Source: Phycisphaeraceae bacterium (GTDB lineage: Bacteria > Planctomycetota > Phycisphaerae > Phycisphaerales > Phycisphaeraceae). From it: a stretch of 64,000 nucleotides of DNA. Each line of letters opens with the position of its first letter. The first letter of the stretch is position 1. This document shows, piece by piece, positions 31,023 through 46,570 of this stretch. The stretch is taken from assembly GCA_020849625.1 (NCBI GenBank), contig JADLFV010000080.1, positions 1 to 64,000 on the forward strand, given 5' to 3'. The translations under genes were made by a program, and so were the position numbers. The notes beneath the pieces are model-generated. The model did no database searches. It worked only from the letters and a program-made list of their open reading frames with translations, and had not been told where the DNA came from.

Positions 31023-31595
31023 TTACGATGGCTGTAGGCGTCTGTGTTTCGAGTAGAGCGGGGATCTTGATGCGTGCGGGTTATTGGATGGTTCCACCGG
31101 GTCGTTGCTTTTGCGAAAGGTCGTCGCCAGTTGCGAAACGAAAGTGGTGATCGCGAGCAGTTCGATCGCGCCGCCCGTCATGGCTGCGCCCAGGGCCCGG
31201 GGCTGGCTGTGCATCATCATTCCCGCCATGGGCAGCGCCAGGACGAAAATCATGGTGATGAAGACGGCGGCCGCCAGATACGGATCGGCGAGCGTCGTGT
31301 TCCAGAACCGCGGCAGAGCCTGATAGGCGAAACCCATGATGAACAGGCCCACCCAACCGAATATTTGTGCATGGCCGTGGGCGTTGACATTCTGGATGGA
31401 TACGCCCGTAAAGGAGTCGGCCAAACCGATCTGCCACAAAAGTCACACACCCCAGCCTGCTCCAACGGTCAGGATCACGAGAATGCCCACGATGAAAAAT
31501 CGGCGATGAATCGTGTCCGCCATAGGGCAAGACGCCTCTGCTGTCGATGGATGATGCTTCAGCAAATCCGGCCTGATGGTATCGATGGCAGCCAC
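31023..31595 (-). pseudogene. NnrS-like / haem-copper-oxidase-I-like membrane protein, broken
   Basis: Reading from GTG 31595, the frame gives HRRFFIVGILVILTVGAGWG, then V and a TGA stop at 31445-31443, then LLWQIGLADSFTG and HAQIFGWVGLFIMGFAYQAL. The relatives I recall have a Trp codon where this TGA lies (GWGVWLLWQIG), consistent with a single TGG to TGA change. Three further helices remain, then the sequence departs from the family (SNNPHASRSPLYSKHRRLQP) after about 160 residues, whereas family members have about 450. So the gene has a nonsense mutation and has lost its 3' two thirds. The breakpoint abuts the low-GC block. Confidence 0.75.
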
Positions 31596-31598
31596 GGC

Positions 31599-31787
31599 TC
31601 AATCCTCTCTGACCGGCGTCTGCGATGCGGATGCTTTTTCGAGCTGTTTGAGCCGCTGCTGCGGCGGTACGGCATATTGAAGATTCTGCGGCAGAATGCA
31701 GCCCGGGCGTCCGGGCACGCACGAAGTGTGCAGACGTTCGCAGTGATCCGTTCGCTCTCGCAGATGGGGACAAGACCAGCTACTCAC
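31599..31787 (-). CDS. Small cysteine-rich protein
   Basis: A 62-residue protein beginning at GTG 31787, with a strong AAGGAG six bases upstream. Four cysteines are spaced as SCPHLRERTDHCERLHTSC and VPGRPGCIL, which could bind a metal or cluster. The stop lies three bases before the start of the broken NnrS-like gene, so the two were translated together. I do not recognise a named family. The position in an Rrf2-hemerythrin operon points to a role in NO stress or metal handling. Confidence 0.6.
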   Translation of the reverse strand: MSSWSCPHLRERTDHCERLHTSCVPGRPGCILPQNLQYAVPPQQRLKQLEKASASQTPVRED

Positions 31788-33598: not shown

Positions 33599-35938
33599 AT
33601 GCGTTATCTAAGGTTATGGGCCGTGCTGGCAGTGGTGATCATCGGATCTTTTACCGTATTAAGTTATTATGGCTTAAGAATTTATCGACAGGCACCCCCG
33701 ATTCCCCAACGGGTGGTGGCCGCAGACAGCCGGGTGCTATTCACCGCCAGTGACCTGCAGGACGGACAGAATGTCTGGCAGTCCATAGGTGGACAGGAAG
33801 TCGGCAGCATCTGGGGTCACGGAGCCTACGTCGCCCCCGACTGGAACGCCGACTGGCTCCACCGCGAATCGCTGTTTCTGCTGGACCGCTGGGCGTTGGC
33901 GGATCATGGTCAGCGCTACGATGCGCTTTCGGCCGGTGAGCAGGCTGCTTTGCGAGCCCGCCTGACCGAAGCCATGCGGACCAACACCTACGACCCTGCC
34001 ACAGGCGACCTGGTGCTCTCGGCCGATCGTGCCGCGGCATTTGAGGCGCTGTCCAGTTACTACGGCGCGCTGTTCGGTGATGCGGATGCATTCCCCGAGT
34101 CCGTGCGGGCCTATGCGGATGGCGGTTTCTCGCCGCAGAAGCTGCGCGAAGCCTATGCCATACCGCGCAACACGGTTCCTGATGCCACTCGCCGTCAGCA
34201 GATGAGTGCCTTTTTCTTCTGGTCCACTTGGGCCACCACCGCCAACCGGCCCGGCAGCGATGTCAGCTACACACAGAACTGGCCCGCCGAGTCGCTGGTC
34301 GCCAACGCACCGACCGGCTCGATTGTGATCTGGTCACTGGTCAGTTTTGTGCTGTTGCTGGCGGGCATTGGCGCCCTGGTGTGGCATCACGCCACGCTCA
34401 AGCATGACAAGGATGACGAGCCGCGCATCCCCGGCCAGGATCCGCTGCTGGCGTTACAGCCTACGCCCTCGATGAAGGCGACGCTCAAATACTTCTGGGT
34501 CGTCGTCGGCCTGATCCTGGCACAGGTCGGGCTCGGCGTGCTTACGGCTCACTACGGCGTGGAAGGGGAAGGTTTTTTCGGCTTCCCGCTGGCTGAGTAT
34601 CTGCCCTATTCCGTAACGCGCACGTGGCATACACAACTGGGCATTTTCTGGATCGCCACCGCCTGGCTGGCCACCGGTCTGTTCATCGCGCCGGCGGTGT
34701 CCGGGTACGAGCCGCGATTTCAGCGGGCGGGCGTCAACTTCCTGTTCGTCTGCCTGCTGCTGATCGTGGTCGGTTCTTGCTTCGGCACGTGGTACGCCAC
34801 GCGGCAGCAGATGGGCCATGAGATGAACTTCTGGTTCGGGCACCAAGGCTACGAGTATGTCGATCTCGGTCGGTTCTGGCAGTTGTTTCTGTTTGTGGGC
34901 TTGTTCGTGTGGCTGGGGCTGATGACGCGGGCGATCTGGCCGGCGTTCAAAAAACCCGGCGAAAACAAGCACATGCTCGGGTTGTTCCTGCTGTCATCGT
35001 CAGCGATTGCGCTGTTTTACGGAGCCGGCCTGATGTGGGGCCGACACACTCACCTGGCGATGGCGGAGTATTGGCGCTGGTGGGTCGTCCACCTGTGGGT
35101 TGAAGGCTTTTTTGAGGTGTTCGCCACCGTGGTCATCGCGTTCCTGTTCACGCGGATGGGACTGCTGCGGACCGCGGCTGCGACGGCGTCGGTGCTGTTC
35201 GCCACGTCGATCTTCCTGGCCGGGGGGATCATCGGCACGTTCCACCATCTTTATTTCAGCGGCACGCCGACGGCCGTGCTCGCGCTGGGCGCGGTGTTCA
35301 GCGCCCTGGAAGTGGTCCCGCTAACGCTGATCGGCTTCGAGGCTTACGAGAACCTGGCGCTGACTCGTGCCCGTCCGTGGGTCAGCGCTTACCGCTGGCC
35401 GATCTGCTTCTTCGTGGCGGTGGCGTTCTGGAACCTGGTCGGCGCGGGCTTGTTCGGGTTCCTCATCAATCCGCCGATCGCGCTGTACTACATGCAGGGC
35501 ATGAACACCACGCCGGTGCACGGCCACACGGCATTGTTCGGCGTGTACGGCATGCTGGGCATCGGGCTGACCCTGTTTTGCCTCAAGGGCCTGACCATGC
35601 ACAAGACGTGGCGGACCGGTTCGCTCAAGCTGGCGTTCTGGTCGCTGAATCTGGGCCTGGTGCTGATGGTCGTGCTTTCCATGCTGCCGGTGGGACTGAT
35701 GCAGGCCTGGGCCAGTGTTGAGAACGGCGTGTGGTACGCGCGTTCGGCTGAATTCCTGCAAACCGACCTGTTGCAGGCGCTGCGCTGGATGCGCGTCTTC
35801 GGCGACATCACCTTCAGCGTCGGTATTGCCGCCCTGGCCTGGTTCGTCCTCGGGCTGGTGACCGGCTGGTCCCTCCAGCGGCAAACAGAACCAGCCGCGG
35901 TGACGTCCGACCTGCAGCCGGCCGTGCAGCACGCCTGA
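33599..35938 (+). CDS. norZ: Quinol-dependent nitric oxide reductase (qNOR)
   Basis: A 779-residue integral membrane enzyme of the haem-copper family that reduces two NO to N2O using quinol. The N-terminal part has one helix and a periplasmic domain replacing NorC (QDGQNVWQSIGGQEVGSIWG, DWLHRE). The remaining 12 or so helices carry the histidine ligands in EGEGFFGFPLAEYLPYSVTR, TWHTQLGIFW, HLWVEGFFEVFATVVIAF, GTFHHLYFSG and HGHTALFGVYG. The Glu-rich EGFFE region in place of the oxidase tyrosine identifies a reductase. It starts an operon with the hemerythrin and Ric genes (20 and 30 base gaps). Confidence 0.95.
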   Translation: MRYLRLWAVLAVVIIGSFTVLSYYGLRIYRQAPPIPQRVVAADSRVLFTASDLQDGQNVWQSIGGQEVGSIWGHGAYVAPDWNADWLHRESLFLLDRWALADHGQRYDALSAGEQAALRARLTEAMRTNTYDPATGDLVLSADRAAAFEALSSYYGALFGDADAFPESVRAYADGGFSPQKLREAYAIPRNTVPDATRRQQMSAFFFWSTWATTANRPGSDVSYTQNWPAESLVANAPTGSIVIWSLVSFVLLLAGIGALVWHHATLKHDKDDEPRIPGQDPLLALQPTPSMKATLKYFWVVVGLILAQVGLGVLTAHYGVEGEGFFGFPLAEYLPYSVTRTWHTQLGIFWIATAWLATGLFIAPAVSGYEPRFQRAGVNFLFVCLLLIVVGSCFGTWYATRQQMGHEMNFWFGHQGYEYVDLGRFWQLFLFVGLFVWLGLMTRAIWPAFKKPGENKHMLGLFLLSSSAIALFYGAGLMWGRHTHLAMAEYWRWWVVHLWVEGFFEVFATVVIAFLFTRMGLLRTAAATASVLFATSIFLAGGIIGTFHHLYFSGTPTAVLALGAVFSALEVVPLTLIGFEAYENLALTRARPWVSAYRWPICFFVAVAFWNLVGAGLFGFLINPPIALYYMQGMNTTPVHGHTALFGVYGMLGIGLTLFCLKGLTMHKTWRTGSLKLAFWSLNLGLVLMVVLSMLPVGLMQAWASVENGVWYARSAEFLQTDLLQALRWMRVFGDITFSVGIAALAWFVLGLVTGWSLQRQTEPAAVTSDLQPAVQHA

Positions 35939-37525: not shown

Positions 37526-38776
37526 TCAGCGGATCAGGTACAGCAGCGGGAACAGAAAAATCCAGATCAGATCGACCAGATGCCAGTAGAGGCCGCCCAG
37601 ATCGACGGGTGTGTAGTAGATGCTGGAGTACCGTCCCCTCGCGGATGCGATGATGAGCACGAGGATGACGCTCATGCCGATGATGACGTGCAGGGCGTGC
37701 AGGCCCGTGAGCATGAAGTAGATGCTGAAGAAGAGGCGCAAATCCGCGGGGCGCAAGCCCTGCGGCATGTCATGTGCCGGCGAGGTGTCGATCGGATGAA
37801 GGTACTGGGGATTGACGCCGGTGGGCCCCACAGCAGCCAGTTGTATGACGGAGCGCGGGATGAGCAGTTCGAGGTCGGCTGCGGTCCAGACAGTTGGCGC
37901 GCCCTGTTGCTCTGGCGGCTTTTCGCCATCCGTGGATGATGCGGTCGCGGGTGCAGCAGCGGCCTGCTCATGGATCTGGCGCAGGTAGGCGATCACATCA
38001 CGCAGGTGATCGTCGGTGAGCGTGGGATTCCCGCCACGCGGCGGCATCTGCAACTTCATGGTGCTGTCAGCGTCCCAGGCCTGCCGTCCGATCTTGAGGA
38101 AAGTCAGCAGTTCCGGATCGCTTTTCTCATCAATGAACTTGCTGTGCAGCAGATCGGCGCCCTGATTGACCAGGCCTTTGGCGTCCTGTCCGTGGCAGGC
38201 GGCGCAGGTGCCGGTGAAGACCATCTCGCCACGGGTCGCATTTCCGACAGCCGCCGGAGCGGCGGACTTTTCTTCGGACGCGGCTGTCTCCTGTTCGTGA
38301 GGGATTTGTTCCTGCGTCCGGCCATGCTGGAAATGGGCGGCGAAGAATGCTTCGTCAGGGTCGAAGAACCGCCCCAGCATCATGCCGTGCTCCCACTTTT
38401 GTTTGTATTCGACGTATTTGACACTGAGGAAGAACCCGCCGCCCAGAAGTGTCAGGGACAGCAGCGTCACCAGCAGCCGACGCTGATCGCATTGAGCGGC
38501 GCGAACAGCCCAGGCCATGGTGAAACTGCTGATCAACAGTACGGCCGTGTTGAGTCCACCCAGTCGGACGTCCAGAAACTGACTGCCGGCCAGGACCAGT
38601 TCATAATGCGTGCCGCGATAGACCGCATAGGCGACAAACAGCCCGCCGAACATCAGAATTTCCGTGGCCAGGAATATCCACATCCCCAGCTTGGCCGACT
38701 CGTACTGTTGTCGTGAGCCGTCAAAGTGGTGGGCAAGGTGGGCGGGGCGATCGGATGGGTGTTCGTCGGTGCTCAT
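37526..38776 (-). CDS. NorE/cytochrome-oxidase subunit III-like protein with inserted cytochrome c domain
   Basis: A 416-residue fusion. The N-terminal part (residues about 25-125) holds the first helices of a haem-copper oxidase subunit III (KLGMWIFLATEILMFGGLFV, GGLNTAVLLISSFTMAWAV). The subunit III C-terminus (about 330-416) resumes with FFSIYFMLTGLHALHVIIGM and PVDLGGLYWHLVDLIWIFLF. Between them, about residues 175-275 form a class I cytochrome c domain with the haem site CAACH near 190 and a later Met (LQMPPRGGN). NorE proteins of denitrifiers are subunit III-like. No subunit I or II partner is nearby, so the haem domain may pass electrons to NosZ. It overlaps the nosL stop (ATGA). Confidence 0.88.
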   Translation of the reverse strand: MSTDEHPSDRPAHLAHHFDGSRQQYESAKLGMWIFLATEILMFGGLFVAYAVYRGTHYELVLAGSQFLDVRLGGLNTAVLLISSFTMAWAVRAAQCDQRRLLVTLLSLTLLGGGFFLSVKYVEYKQKWEHGMMLGRFFDPDEAFFAAHFQHGRTQEQIPHEQETAASEEKSAAPAAVGNATRGEMVFTGTCAACHGQDAKGLVNQGADLLHSKFIDEKSDPELLTFLKIGRQAWDADSTMKLQMPPRGGNPTLTDDHLRDVIAYLRQIHEQAAAAPATASSTDGEKPPEQQGAPTVWTAADLELLIPRSVIQLAAVGPTGVNPQYLHPIDTSPAHDMPQGLRPADLRLFFSIYFMLTGLHALHVIIGMSVILVLIIASARGRYSSIYYTPVDLGGLYWHLVDLIWIFLFPLLYLIR

Positions 38777-39249
38777 GGTGTGGCGGGAGTTTGTTGGTCA
38801 TGCGAAACCAGGTCACGGTAAAGACGCTTTCGGCCGGGGAATTGCGCCAACAGGCGATCAGCGGCTTGCGAAGTTGCACAGGCAGCGATGCCGCAAGCCA
38901 TGGGCGTGTGCAGTTGTTCGCTCTGCACAATGGTTGCTTGTTCAGTCGTCAACCACTGCTCGCTTTCATAGTCAGTCACGTAACGCTGCACGATGCCCCC
39001 GGAAGTGGCCTCAGCCTCGTAGCGCAGCAGGCAGCCGATGTCATCGAACACCAGGGATGTGAGTCGGCCGTCGCTCTCGCGCACGATGCACGCCGCGGCG
39101 AAGCGGCCGTCGCTGACCATCATGCGACAGAAATCGCACTCCTGGGCTCCCAGGTGCAAAGCAGGCGGCTCAATGCGCTCCTCGTCTCGACAGCTGCCGC
39201 ATATCGCCGCTGCGAACAACACCAACACGACCATCAGTCGGTGCATCAT
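38773..39249 (-). CDS. nosL: Copper chaperone NosL
   Basis: A 158-residue exported protein of the NosL family, which supplies copper(I) to apo-NosZ outside the membrane. It has a hydrophobic N-terminal signal (MMHRLMVVLVLFAAAICGSC). The hallmark CDFCRMMVSDGRFAAACI follows, and FDDIGCLLRYE lies further on. It overlaps the stop of nosY by four bases and its own stop overlaps the next start in the same way. A CCCCCGGAA word lies at 38996. Confidence 0.92.
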   Translation of the reverse strand: MMHRLMVVLVLFAAAICGSCRDEERIEPPALHLGAQECDFCRMMVSDGRFAAACIVRESDGRLTSLVFDDIGCLLRYEAEATSGGIVQRYVTDYESEQWLTTEQATIVQSEQLHTPMACGIAACATSQAADRLLAQFPGRKRLYRDLVSHDQQTPATP

Positions 39250-40076
39250 GACAGCGGCCTCCGGGCGAAGAGCAGCGCCGCCAGCGCCATCGGCGCCACG
39301 ATCCAGGCGGTCAACGCAGCGGCGAAGATTAGACCGAGCCAGCGCCCGTATTCCTGCACCGCGTAAGTCGCTGCCGGCCCCAGCACGTCCAGGCTGGCGT
39401 GCATGCTGCGCAGCACCGACATCTTGAACACTTCAAGCGGATTCAGCAGAGCCAGGTGAAACAACTCGTCCATGCGCAGCCGGAACATCAGCGATCCACC
39501 CATCAGGCCCAGATCGCTGAACAAGGTCAGGGCAAGCCACAACACGATGACCATTCCCACAGCCACCGAAGCTTTGCGCACCAGGGCGGACACCAGCAGC
39601 CCGACGCTCAGCATGGCCAAAGCGAGCGTCATGGTCATGGCGGTCAGCACCAGGAAGCCGGCCAGGCCCTGGGCGTGTCCTTTGGCGGCAATGCTCAAGC
39701 CGGCCACACCGAACCCCAGCCCCAGGGCCGCGACCAGCGACACACCCAGGCCGACGAATTTCCCGAATAAAACTTCGAGACGATTCACCGGCTGGGCCAG
39801 CAGGTATGCCAACGTGCCGCGCTCGCGTTCGCCCGCCAGGCTGGGCGCCGCGATCGACAGGGCCATCAGGGGCACAAACAGAAGCACCAGGTTGACCAGG
39901 GCAGCGGTGGTGCGGCCGAAACCTGCCAATCCCTGCAGGGTCGTTCCCGCCAGCGACAATTGCGCCATCGCCAACGCCAGCACGGTGAATGCAGCGGCGT
40001 AACATTGAAACCAGCGGTTGCGCAGGGCGTCACGTATTTCCTTGCGGCCGATGATCATGACGGTGCGCACGCTCAT
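39246..40076 (-). CDS. nosY: ABC transporter permease NosY
   Basis: A 276-residue inner-membrane protein with about six helices and the ABC-2 permease pattern. The segment SLAGERERGTLAYLLAQPVN is characteristic of NosY. Together with NosF it forms the transporter needed to mature the CuZ site of NosZ; the transported compound is thought to be a sulfur species. Four-base overlaps join it to both neighbours. Confidence 0.92.
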   Translation of the reverse strand: MSVRTVMIIGRKEIRDALRNRWFQCYAAAFTVLALAMAQLSLAGTTLQGLAGFGRTTAALVNLVLLFVPLMALSIAAPSLAGERERGTLAYLLAQPVNRLEVLFGKFVGLGVSLVAALGLGFGVAGLSIAAKGHAQGLAGFLVLTAMTMTLALAMLSVGLLVSALVRKASVAVGMVIVLWLALTLFSDLGLMGGSLMFRLRMDELFHLALLNPLEVFKMSVLRSMHASLDVLGPAATYAVQEYGRWLGLIFAAALTAWIVAPMALAALLFARRPLS

Positions 40077-42385
40077 GACGTGACTCCTTCCTCACCGTTG
40101 CTGTGGTTATCCAGTTCAAAGTCCTGCACCGTCAATCCGCCCGTCATCAGCACGTTCAACGGCCGGCCCTTGTCATCGGGGCGGACCCGCACGCTCAGGC
40201 TGCGACCATTGCGGCGAGCATCGAATCCCTCGCGGTGCAGAAGTTCCACCGCCTTGTCGAGACCAGCCGCATCCACCCAGACCCGCAGTCCCACCTGCAA
40301 ACCGAGCGTCTGCGCCAACTGCTGCGGCTCACACACCGCGGTCACTCTGCCGCGCTGCATCACCAGAACGCGATCAGCCAGGGCGGTGATCTCCTCCAGA
40401 CGATGCGAGGTGAAAAGGATGGCCTTGTCGCGCCGCCGTTGATCCTGAAGCAGGCTGAGGAAGCTGCGTCGGGCCGCGGCGTCGAGATTGGCGGTGATCT
40501 CATCGAGGATCAGCAGGGGCGGATCAGCCAGCAGGGCGGCCGCGAGGGCCAGGCGCTGTTTCATGCCGCCGGACAGCGCTGCGACTTTCTTTCGTGCATG
40601 ATCCGACAGGCCGACTTCCGCCAGCACTTGGCCCACGCGCCGCTTGTGTACGCGCTTGATTCGGGCGAAGAAGCACAGCAATTCATCGGCTTTCCAGTCA
40701 TCGTAGAACGCCAGCTCCTGCGGCACGTAGCCCACGCAGGTGCGGGCAGCTTTGCCGTGGCGTCGCACATCGTGGCCGACGATCACGATGCTGGCTCCGG
40801 CCGCGCAGCGATACAGGCCGAGGATGCAGCGAATGGCGGTGGTTTTGCCTGCGCCGTTGTCACCCCACAGAGCCAAAGCCTCGCCGCCCCGCAGATCAAA
40901 ACTCATATCCTCAACCGCCCAGACACGTCCGAAGCGCTTGCTCAGCGATTGCACCTTCAAAAGCGGCGCGGTGCTCGTCACAGCCTCGGAGTCTTGCATT
41001 TCGAATTGAGCGGCTGGGGCCGCTGTTGAGGCCGTCGCATTTCGAATCGGCCCTCTGCCCACCAAGGTCAACAGCAGGCCGCTGGCGACGATCAATCCCG
41101 CCGCCACGGCAGCCAGTGATGATGCGGATGCTTGCGTTTGCTGCGGCATGGCGATCAGAATCGGCTGCATCAGCGGGGCGCTATCCGTGAGTTTGGGAAT
41201 GGGACGAATGGTAGGCACGGTGCGGGCGGCCATCTCGATGGCCTGCTGGGCGGGACTGAACAGGAACAGGCGCAGCTTCGGCTCGCGGTCCATCAGGTTC
41301 TCGAACAGGCTTTGCGCCTGATAAGGCACGTCGCCCACGCCGTCGCCGCCGCGGTCGTATCCGTTGTAGTCGCTCCAGTAGTTGCCGCGGCCGTCTGTCG
41401 TGAAGCTGTTGCCGTCGAATCGACCGCTGCCCAGCACCGCCACCTGCTCGATGTTTTCCAGGAAGGTGTTTTCGCTGAAGTGATTGCGTTTGGTCGAAGG
41501 CTGGAAGGCCAGGGCGATATCGTTGAAAGCCAGGACATTGCGGGAGAAGTGTTGCTGGACATCGACGGAGGAGGGCGAATTGTCGAAGTAGATGCCGATG
41601 CGGTTGCCGTCGAACACGTTGCCGGTGGCGGTAACGCCGTCCATGTCCTTGAGTCCGATGCCGTAGCCGCTGGGTCCGCGATTACGGGCGAAGCGATTGC
41701 CGCGGAGGGTCAGACGCCGGCTGTACATCAGGAACGCGCCGACGGAGTTGTCCTGCAGGCTGTTATTTTCCAGCGTGTTGTCGTCGCAGTACATGAAGTG
41801 CAGGCCGTACCGGCCGCGACTGACCAGGTTGCCGCGAACAGTGACGTTGCTGGAGAACCAGATCACCACGTCCCGGCCGTCGTGGACGTTGTTGTCTTCG
41901 ATCAGGCAGCCGGGCGAATACCACAGGCGGATGCCGTCGCCGCGGCGAGGCAGATCCAGGTCTTTGCCGCCGATGCGGTTGCGGCGGATCACGCTGTCGG
42001 CCGCCTTTTTCAGATAGATGCCGAAAAGCACATCATCAAAAGTGTTGTCCTCGATGATGGCGCGGGGGGCGAGCACGACGATCCCGGCATTTTCACGATC
42101 CAGGCTGTCGCCGGTGCCGGTGATGCGCATCCCGCGCACGGTCACATCGGGTGCTTCGATGCGAATCGCGTCGCCTTTTTCATGAGCGTCTATGATCGCG
42201 CCCGGCTCACCGGCCAGGGTCATGGAGCGACGGATCACCAGTGGGCCGTCATGTCGTCCGGCAGTGACGCGCACGGTCTGGCCGGCCTGCGATTCATCGA
42301 TCAGACGTTGCAGTTCACCCTCTTGCGCACGGGCGCCAGCGGTTGTCGCCAGGATCATCACCAGTTGCATCGTGATACGGAGCAT
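40073..42385 (-). CDS. nosDF: NosD-NosF fusion: beta-helix copper-site protein joined to ABC ATPase
   Basis: A 770-residue protein. After a signal peptide (MLRITMQLVMILATTAGARA), residues about 25-380 are a right-handed beta-helix of the NosD/CASH type with repeated N-x-[IVF]-x-x-N turns (IEDNTFDDVLFGIYL, LRGNRFARNRGPSGYGIGLK). One helix (about 420-442, SLAAVAAGLIVASGLLLTLV) crosses the membrane. The C-terminal part is a NosF ATPase with Walker A GDNGAGKTT near 510, the signature LSGGMKQRLALA near 602 and Walker B PPLLILDEI. In other nos clusters NosD and NosF are separate proteins. The topology (NosD outside, NosF inside) is compatible with fusion. Confidence 0.93.
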   Translation of the reverse strand: MLRITMQLVMILATTAGARAQEGELQRLIDESQAGQTVRVTAGRHDGPLVIRRSMTLAGEPGAIIDAHEKGDAIRIEAPDVTVRGMRITGTGDSLDRENAGIVVLAPRAIIEDNTFDDVLFGIYLKKAADSVIRRNRIGGKDLDLPRRGDGIRLWYSPGCLIEDNNVHDGRDVVIWFSSNVTVRGNLVSRGRYGLHFMYCDDNTLENNSLQDNSVGAFLMYSRRLTLRGNRFARNRGPSGYGIGLKDMDGVTATGNVFDGNRIGIYFDNSPSSVDVQQHFSRNVLAFNDIALAFQPSTKRNHFSENTFLENIEQVAVLGSGRFDGNSFTTDGRGNYWSDYNGYDRGGDGVGDVPYQAQSLFENLMDREPKLRLFLFSPAQQAIEMAARTVPTIRPIPKLTDSAPLMQPILIAMPQQTQASASSLAAVAAGLIVASGLLLTLVGRGPIRNATASTAAPAAQFEMQDSEAVTSTAPLLKVQSLSKRFGRVWAVEDMSFDLRGGEALALWGDNGAGKTTAIRCILGLYRCAAGASIVIVGHDVRRHGKAARTCVGYVPQELAFYDDWKADELLCFFARIKRVHKRRVGQVLAEVGLSDHARKKVAALSGGMKQRLALAAALLADPPLLILDEITANLDAAARRSFLSLLQDQRRRDKAILFTSHRLEEITALADRVLVMQRGRVTAVCEPQQLAQTLGLQVGLRVWVDAAGLDKAVELLHREGFDARRNGRSLSVRVRPDDKGRPLNVLMTGGLTVQDFELDNHSNGEEGVTS

Positions 42386-42409: not shown

Positions 42410-43108
42410 TCAGTTGCCATAGGGATCGAACCAGTTGACCACGGCTTGCGAGCCCGGCGTCTGCTGCCAGGCGTCATCGAACAGATGGCTGGCGGCATGG
42501 CCGTCGGTGAACACGTAGTTGGCGGTGCGTCGATGGCGATCGACGAAGATCGTTTTGGGCAGACCCGTGGTGGTATCCCACTGTCTGCTCTGCATCATGG
42601 CGCTGGCCACGTCAGGCGGGCTGCCCCAGTACATGGGCATGAAGTGGTCGCTGGTCAGGTTTTCGACCAGTTCCGCGGCAATGATGGTGTGCGAGGGATT
42701 TTTGATTTGGCTGGGTTTGATGCCGAAGTAGGGCGGGTGATTGGGAGTGAAATAGGCGTTGATGCCGTAGGACGTGAATCGCGGCGATGTTGGATCGCGC
42801 CAGTTGTCGCTGGCGTCGGTGGGGCACTGATACACTTCGATCTCGTGCAGGTAAGGCTCGGTCAGGCGCACCCAGGAGGTTTCGATGGGTGCGGTCGCGG
42901 GCATGCGAGCGGTGGGATAGAAATTCCGCGCATCATCCGCGGCATAGAGGTCCATCACCACGGCAATGGCCCGCGTGTTGGAAAGACACTTGACTGCCAG
43001 GGCCGACTGTCGGGCCGTCGCCAGCGTGGGCAGAAGCACGCCGATCAGCAGGGCGATGATGGAGATCACCACCAACAGTTCAATCAGGGTAAAAGCATCA
43101 CGCTTCAT
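42410..43108 (-). CDS. Type IV pilin-like/H-x9-DG-type prepilin inside the nos operon
   Basis: A 232-residue prepilin. The N-terminal cleavage and methylation site and helix ([20 protein letters not shown]) and the C-terminal VFTDGHAASHLF, a variant of the H-x9-DG planctomycete pattern, are clear. The start overlaps the upstream membrane-protein gene by 11 bases and the gene is only 24 bases from nosDF, so it is part of the operon. No role in N2O reduction is known for such proteins. A second prepilin of the same kind lies at 58777. Confidence 0.88.
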   Translation of the reverse strand: MKRDAFTLIELLVVISIIALLIGVLLPTLATARQSALAVKCLSNTRAIAVVMDLYAADDARNFYPTARMPATAPIETSWVRLTEPYLHEIEVYQCPTDASDNWRDPTSPRFTSYGINAYFTPNHPPYFGIKPSQIKNPSHTIIAAELVENLTSDHFMPMYWGSPPDVASAMMQSRQWDTTTGLPKTIFVDRHRRTANYVFTDGHAASHLFDDAWQQTPGSQAVVNWFDPYGN

Positions 43109-43784
43109 GGTTGTTGGCTCCGATGGCGGGGGATTCAATGTTCTGATCAACCAGCGGTTTGTAGGCGGCCCGGTGAAACCAGAGAGCTGCCAGCACCAGC
43201 AGGGCGGCGACGGCGGCCAGGATCAATCCTGTGTCCGGCAGCGCCACGGTCGTGAACTGGCCGACCTTGCCTTCGCCCAAGACAGGCGGCACGAATGGTT
43301 TGACTGAACTGGAAAGCGGCGCATGGGGGTCGAGATTCTGCCCGAAGTGCGCCATCCACAAGTGCAGGTCCACCAGGAAGCCGGCCGGGAACAGGGCTGC
43401 GGGCAGCGCCAGCAGAGCAGCCCAGCGATTGTGGATGAAGATGGCGCCGATTAGCAGCAGGGCCAGGACGCTGGTCATCATGATGGCCAGCGAGCGTTCG
43501 AGGCGGGCCGCCTCTTCCAGGGGGCGCATGCCGATGTAGTGGTTCAGGCCGTCGATTTCATGGACGTCGCCGGTCAGTCGATTGAGGTAAGCCTGCACGT
43601 GCAGGCCTTTGGGGTACTGCGGGGCGTGCAGGGTCATGCGCCAATAGGGCGTGAAGATGGACGCCGCCAGCAGAATCGCGGCCAGCATGAGCAGAAGCGT
43701 GGGCAGCAGATAGCGGCTACGGCGTCGTTGCCATTCGTCAGCGGGTATGCGGGGGCCGAGGATGTTCTGCATCAATCGTGTCAC
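43098..43784 (-). CDS. Integral membrane protein of nos operon
   Basis: A 228-residue protein with about four helices (residues 27-47, about 98-117, 120-142 and 190-208). The periplasmic segment between helices 1 and 2 contains HVQAYLNRLTGDVHEIDGLN and HYIGMRPL, with several histidines. Proteins of this kind sit between nosZ and nosD in clade II nos clusters; their function is unknown, but copper binding or electron transfer has been suggested by context. It follows nosZ by 164 bases. Confidence 0.75.
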   Translation of the reverse strand: MTRLMQNILGPRIPADEWQRRRSRYLLPTLLLMLAAILLAASIFTPYWRMTLHAPQYPKGLHVQAYLNRLTGDVHEIDGLNHYIGMRPLEEAARLERSLAIMMTSVLALLLIGAIFIHNRWAALLALPAALFPAGFLVDLHLWMAHFGQNLDPHAPLSSSVKPFVPPVLGEGKVGQFTTVALPDTGLILAAVAALLVLAALWFHRAAYKPLVDQNIESPAIGANNHEA

Positions 43785-43948: not shown

Positions 43949-46029
<2,081 letters not shown>

Positions 46030-46033
<4 letters not shown>

Positions 46034-46500
46034 GATCGGCGCCTGATAGTGGGTTGAACCTTCCTTACCTCAGACTTGCACAAGCCGGCAGGTGTGGAAG
46101 AGGAATCATCGTGGATCAGATCGGAAATGCTCGCCTTGGCCAGCGCGGACTGCAGGGTGGCCAGGGTCTGGTCGAGCGTTTGGTGCAACGGGCACAAATG
46201 ACCGCGGTGGGCGGAAATCTTCAAGGGACAGTCGTGGATGCGCTCAATGGGCTCGACTAGGTTGATGACATCGAGCACAGACAGTTGCGCAGGCTGGCGC
46301 AGCAGTTTGAACCCGCCGCCGATGCCGCGCTGGGCGTCCACAAGACCCGCCTTGACCATCGTGTTAAGCACCTTGCTCAAGTAGCTGGCGGGAATCTGGG
46401 TGCGCTGGGCAATCTGCTGCGAGGTCTGCGGCCGGTCGGGGAATTCCGCCAAGGCCACCATGGCTCTCAGGGCATACTCGGCGGTTTGACTGAACAGCAT
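46030..46500 (-). CDS. Rrf2-family Fe-S regulator heading the nos operon
   Basis: A 156-residue regulator of the NsrR/IscR family: MLFSQTAEYALRAMVALAEF and QRTQIPASYLSKVLNTMVKA form the winged helix. Cysteines in HDCPLKISAHRGHLCPLH and LCKSEV provide three cluster ligands. ATG 46500 aligns with the paralogue at 32996-33454; the frame begins five codons earlier. Its stop overlaps the nosZ start. A near-consensus promoter with an overlapping operator-like sequence lies 36-70 bases upstream, so the operon is probably autoregulated by NO or O2 through this protein. Confidence 0.9.
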
Positions 46501-46535
46501 GCTGGCGAGCTCCACTAGACGACTTCTCGATCTAG

Positions 46536-46570
46536 ATATCCATAATAAGAAAGTGACTGACGCTTGTCAA
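46536..46570 (-). promoter_or_regulatory. Promoter and candidate Rrf2 operator of the nos operon
   Basis: On the minus strand TTGACA (46570-46565) and TATTAT (46547-46542) are separated by 17 bases, close to the sigma70 consensus. The -10 box is embedded in ATATCCATAATA (plus strand 46536-46547), which matches ATGTCCATAATA before norZ (33577-33588) with one difference. Confidence 0.7.

Follow-up and report, generated by a model that had tools for sequence, protein, structure and literature searches.

A haem-carrying oxidase subunit III at the end of a planctomycete nos operon: a candidate tethered electron carrier for clade II NosZ

Nitrous oxide reductase, NosZ, is the known biological sink for N2O, and the route by which electrons reach the clade II form of this enzyme is poorly worked out. 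A gene that closes a nos operon in a Phycisphaeraceae bacterium (assembly GCA_020849625.1, a draft in 154 contigs) brings this question to the fore. The window analysed here is a stretch of 64,000 nucleotides, positions 1 to 64,000 of contig JADLFV010000080.1; its first-pass annotation described a cytochrome c domain placed in the middle of a NorE/subunit III-like protein, and proposed that this domain could be the electron donor for N2O reduction. What kind of protein is encoded here, and does its setting argue for such a role?

The minus-strand open reading frame at 37526-38776 encodes 416 amino acids with no internal stop, and its product is a haem-copper-oxidase subunit III of five helices, one periplasmic loop of which accommodates a complete class I cytochrome c. 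The interruption of the subunit III helices by a domain with a CAACH haem site, as initially read, is borne out by an AlphaFold2 model, by fold matches and by Pfam, whose COX3 family matches two stretches flanking the cytochrome c (E 7e-15; 56 bits against a curated cut-off of 23.8). The models Cytochrome_CBB3 and Cytochrom_C (PF13442/PF00034) cover residues 179-267 (E 2e-8, above cut-off), the haem motif being C191-A-A-C194-H195 and the Met ligand lying within a conserved MPPRGGNP motif. The gene and its parts are as follows.

37526-38776, minus strand: subunit III-cytochrome c fusion, 416 aa (open reading frame, Pfam, AlphaFold2, fold match)
38390-38776, minus strand: first subunit III part, residues 1-129, canonical helices 3-5 (Pfam COX3; AlphaFold2 helices 21-56, 70-95, 99-129)
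37955-38242, minus strand: inserted class I cytochrome c, residues about 179-274, CAACH at 191-195 (Pfam, AlphaFold2, fold match)
37526-37750, minus strand: second subunit III part, residues about 343-416, canonical helices 6-7 (Pfam COX3 349-413; AlphaFold2 helices 343-379, 389-413)

The AlphaFold2 model, obtained from an alignment of 33 sequences with a mean pLDDT of 77.9, begins with three helices; a low-confidence linker then leads to a compact cytochrome c, and a longer one, likewise of low confidence, to the last two helices. The cytochrome forms a separate unit (about 180-274) between the two linkers. When this model is compared with known folds, its membrane part superposes on helices 3-7 of bovine subunit III (Z 22, 183 residues, 1.7 Å), and the insert, which occupies the loop joining canonical helices 5 and 6, matches cytochrome c-554 (Z 10.9). 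Subunit III topology puts this loop in the periplasm, the side on which haem c attachment must take place. The architecture, that of a membrane-bound oxidase subunit III with a tethered cytochrome c, is confirmed. The NorE-like identity had to be abandoned: the closest named families are the aa3/bo3 subunits III (CtaE, CyoC, QoxC), the protein is of the caa3 type, the family-model search reported no NorE-named model for the protein, and no cNOR genes are adjacent.

The operon to which this gene belongs starts with an Rrf2 regulator and continues with nosZ, a membrane protein, a pilin-like protein, a nosD-nosF fusion, nosY, nosL and, last, the subunit III-cytochrome c fusion; both the terminal position and the four-base overlap with nosL, claimed at the outset, are confirmed, and overlaps of the same length join Rrf2 to nosZ, nosDF to nosY, and nosY to nosL.

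38773-39249, minus strand: nosL, copper chaperone (PF05573; four-base overlap with the fusion)
39246-40076, minus strand: nosY, ABC permease (named by position and by similarity among nos loci)
40073-42385, minus strand: nosD-nosF fusion (PF05048 NosD and PF00005 ABC_tran)
42410-43150, minus strand: pilin-like protein with N-methylation motif (PF07963)
43098-43784, minus strand: membrane protein of unknown function adjoining nosZ, kept in most nos loci
43949-46033, minus strand: nosZ, Sec-type clade II, with lipoprotein-like N-terminus (TIGR04246, PF18764)
46030-46515, minus strand: Rrf2-family regulator, first gene of the operon (PF02082; four-base overlap with nosZ)
46542-46570, minus strand: predicted sigma-70-like promoter, TTGACA-17-TATTAT (11/12; pattern match only)

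The window NosZ belongs to clade II, the Sec-dependent form: it scores 835.6 bits with TIGR04246, whose cut-off is 625, and has a lipobox-like AGC behind its signal sequence, in agreement with the lipid-anchored clade II enzyme originally described. No further c-type cytochrome was found in the operon, the fusion being the sole one, and an Rfam scan of the window between 30 and 50 kb gave no matches. As to the other genes, NosD and NosF form a single protein of 770 aa (40073-42385, minus strand), being encoded by two genes in many relatives, while the pilin-like gene within this operon (42410-43150, minus strand) is absent from the other nos operons examined. The membrane protein at 43098-43784 (minus strand) has no Pfam or NCBIfam match; proteins of its type are encoded beside nosZ in most planctomycete nos operons, and are fused to NosD in loci L045, L156 and L070. 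The statement that no subunit I or II gene is adjacent stands for the operon itself, but a qNOR gene (33599-35938) lies nearby, on the opposite strand and outside the nos operon, and is the haem-copper oxidase subunit I gene nearest to the fusion. A COX1/NnrS-like sequence at 31023-31773 (minus strand) extends across two frames with an in-frame TGA, and is possibly a frameshifted or decayed gene.

The same domain order was searched for in other genomes, and the 41 copies examined all keep the CxxCH and Met motifs. A full-length or nearly full-length fusion is present in about 38 of 400 genomes of the order; in a phylum-wide sample of 392 genomes five exceeded the profile threshold, and four were left after removal of G222, whose candidate, encoded in an oxidase operon, is a subunit III without haem. 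Among the matches listed for a species-level genome collection, contiguous fusions come from Planctomycetota only, and none of the 68 subunit III reading frames from the collection's other listed loci (including Acidobacteriota, Myxococcota and KSB1) has a haem motif. A single origin is rejected neither by the subunit III tree (AU p 0.41), from which long-branch rows were left out, nor by the haem tree (0.59); on the former, the clade of the window protein stands next to the caa3 subunit III of its own family (support 82). In the open-access literature no account was found of a fusion between subunit III and cytochrome c, or of such an arrangement in nos clusters.

The genomic contexts of the 41 copies are diverse: 12 are at the end of a nos operon (the window and 11 other genomes), 12 in molybdenum-oxidoreductase/EB_dh clusters, eight after narI-narK, eight unlinked, and one beside a probable cbb3 oxidase. 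In this last case (L235:5000-9456), at a contig edge, the fusion is directly upstream of the probable oxidase (CcoNO/CcoP-like). Co-occurrence with nosZ, put forward earlier as a check for the clade II form, is seen in those 12 copies, but only nine of 118 nosZ-positive genomes sampled in the order carry the fusion inside the nos operon. Specificity for nos is ruled out by the 20 copies associated with nitrate or molybdenum reductase clusters, one of them the second copy of the source genome, and because 29 of the 41 copies occur without nos linkage, such linkage alone does not define the partner of the fusion. Being encoded together with subunits I and II, a trait of the subunit III family, is not shared by the fusion, and none of the 41 copies adjoins caa3 coxI/coxII; a location mainly beside oxidase operons and never with nosZ, the pattern that would speak against the first reading, was looked for and not found. 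The fusion family is broader than nos, and the nos placement is a minority variant.

What related nos operons carry in place of the fusion bears on the donor role. Among 51 nosZ loci (DISPLACEMENT), in 38 the gene directly upstream of nosZ encodes a homologous mono- or dihaem cytochrome c and the fusion is missing, whereas none of the seven fusion loci with sufficient flank (at least about 950 bases upstream of nosZ) has a homologue of this cytochrome; no locus carries both, and six have neither homologue, two of these being cut short and most having some other cytochrome nearby. The comparison of 38 in 44 other loci with 0 in 7 fusion loci yields a Fisher p of 1.5e-5, valid if the loci are independent, kinship being ignored. 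On the NosZ tree the states switch five times on the best tree and twice on supported branches, too few for a significant phylogenetic test, and in independent pairs the other trait never shifts in the same direction. The haem domain of the fusion is clearly similar to that of the cytochrome encoded before nosZ in sibling operons, and the haem tree places it with domain 2 of these cytochromes, apart from the haem domains of NarI, ActE and CoxII, in a weak grouping (SH-aLRT 80, 98 columns). Replacement of a donor cytochrome by the fusion would be expected to leave such a non-overlap, which is suggestive of it rather than a proof. The proposal of a donor for N2O reduction is hence strengthened by the 11 further nos-terminal copies and by the upstream cytochrome that has no counterpart in fusion operons, but not in the form of a nos-specific protein. 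G492 (L239) has a monohaem cytochrome upstream of nosZ while relatives in its genus carry the fusion, which suggests replacement of the whole operon. In a separate case, isolate OFTM41 carries nosZ (L055:3402-5432); the paper on the OFTM genomes reports one nosZ only, in OFTM356 (PMC10732223).

If the cytochrome were to serve NosZ, where would its electrons come from? With invariant residues defined as those present in at least 90% of a canonical subunit III set, the window protein retains 57 of 61 and most complete fusions keep 57-61. This near-complete retention indicates a scaffold constrained like that of a working subunit III, and suggests that the fusion probably still docks on alternative complex III (ACIII) or an ACIII-caa3 supercomplex; assembly with an oxidase subunit I could also fit. 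In four diverged copies (L070, L075, L046, L225) many subunit III residues have decayed and the cytochrome c is conserved, so docking may not be general. In the ACIII-aa3 supercomplex of F. johnsoniae the contacts run through the five-helix subunit III (PMC8361435), and in Methylacidiphilum IT6 a nos cluster with two nosC genes lies within the ACIII genes (PMC11102522). Phycisphaerales have been reported to possess ACIII and to lack bc1 (PMC11266412). ACIII is the only quinol:cytochrome c oxidoreductase found in the source genome, where no cytochrome b (bc1) match was detected. The ACIII subunit ActC was found in 35 of 37 fusion genomes, a co-occurrence that is uninformative on its own because ACIII is reportedly general across the order, and since 13 of 28 fusion genomes have a cytochrome b-family match, ACIII need not be the donor everywhere.

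The source genome also harbours relatives of the fusion. Its caa3 oxidase operon, downstream of the ACIII genes, keeps its own subunit III, which is 55% identical to the window protein and carries, in the equivalent loop, a long insert without haem. A second fusion (401 aa; L007:9336-10541) is encoded ahead of the genes for a molybdenum oxidoreductase (twin-arginine-like N-terminus, distant DMSO reductase II-type match), its NarH-like iron-sulphur subunit, and an EB_dh-domain protein. In one small-genome genus (L265, L266, L268, L269, L278, L279) the caa3 operons lack a subunit III gene, coxI being followed directly by the gene for the next small subunit.

From these comparisons of sequence and gene order it seems somewhat probable that the fusion is a membrane-anchored, tethered cytochrome that relays electrons from ACIII to NosZ, a subunit III serving as its scaffold. 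Its five helices would hold it in the membrane, docked on ACIII or an ACIII-caa3 supercomplex, and the cytochrome, hanging in the periplasm on flexible linkers, would take electrons from ACIII and hand them to the CuA site of NosZ. It would stand in for the separately encoded mono- or dihaem cytochrome c whose gene immediately precedes nosZ in related operons, and paralogues of the same design may serve nitrate and other molybdenum reductases. The donor role for NosZ is moderately supported; electron transfer to NosZ and the docking partner are what we infer.

The high retention of subunit III residues could also be accounted for if the fusion were an alternative caa3 subunit III, one that replaces the haem-less form under some conditions and adds a haem to the oxidase or to an ACIII-caa3 supercomplex, its nos or nar placement serving low-oxygen co-expression and NosZ not being reduced by it. 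A caa3-type coxI match in 36 of 37 fusion genomes, and caa3 operons without a subunit III gene in G512, G459, G516, G728, G450 and G520 (one genus) and in G617, agree with this; however, the fusion never adjoins caa3 coxI/coxII, the source genome's oxidase has a subunit III of its own, the four diverged copies retain the haem while their subunit III residues decay, and the missing upstream cytochrome of fusion-bearing nos operons is left unexplained, so that we judge it unlikely. Somewhat less likely still is a general pool of membrane-bound cytochrome on which several periplasmic reductases draw in common, no copy being dedicated to the enzyme of its own operon. For this, the recurrence of one design in nos, nar, molybdenum-oxidoreductase and unlinked settings, and unlinked copies in genomes with no NarI match, could be cited; separate copies linked to different reductases in a single genome (the source genome, G480) rather suggest specialisation.

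NorE is a subunit III homologue found in a denitrification setting, as is the fusion, and the neighbouring qNOR gene ends 1.6 kb away, which could evoke a NorE-like accessory of that enzyme. Such a role is very improbable, given that qNOR is on the opposite strand with two genes between, that the other nos loci examined have no qNOR close to the fusion, and that the aa3/bo3 subunits III are the closest families; NorE itself differs in having no haem domain, and the fusion has no norCB beside it. Lastly, a draft assembly could in principle have created a chimeric or decaying gene, but the chance of this is negligible: 41 copies from many independent assemblies share the architecture with invariant haem ligands, and the frameshift named as a possible refutation was not found.

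A tethered carrier of this kind would combine traits of several known systems. Fold, helices 3-7 and most invariant residues are those of the five-helix CtaE/CyoC-type subunit III (PF00510), which differs in having no inserted cytochrome c and in being encoded with subunits I and II, and the insert has the CxxCH, distal Met ligand and fold of a class I cytochrome c (PF00034/PF13442). Like the NosC-type cytochromes of clade II nos clusters and the planctomycete upstream cytochrome, whose haem domain it resembles, the fusion is the only c-type cytochrome of its nos operon; those proteins are single-helix or soluble, whereas here the haem domain lies within a five-helix subunit III, and the gene is last in the operon instead of adjoining nosZ. 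Membrane-tethered mobile cytochromes, such as cyt cy and the N-terminal haem domain of F. johnsoniae ActA, similarly keep a haem domain at the membrane on flexible linkers, and a CcoP-cyt cy chimera (6xkx) is a PDB sequence match; the fusion is distinct in its oxidase subunit III anchor and in its linkers on both sides of the haem domain.

A broader and more tentative view, possible though not likely, is that Phycisphaerales plug an exchangeable haem-carrying subunit III into the ACIII (or ACIII-caa3) supercomplex. Each operon for an anaerobic reductase would have its own version, docking at the site of the aerobic subunit III, with a tethered cytochrome that draws electrons away from oxygen and towards N2O, nitrate or a different acceptor; in one genus the haem-carrying form may now be the oxidase's own subunit III. 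The fusion family offers a testable route, from quinol through ACIII and the tethered cytochrome to NosZ, and suggests that subunit III may be a swappable docking module by which one quinol:cytochrome c oxidoreductase is shared among several terminal reductases.
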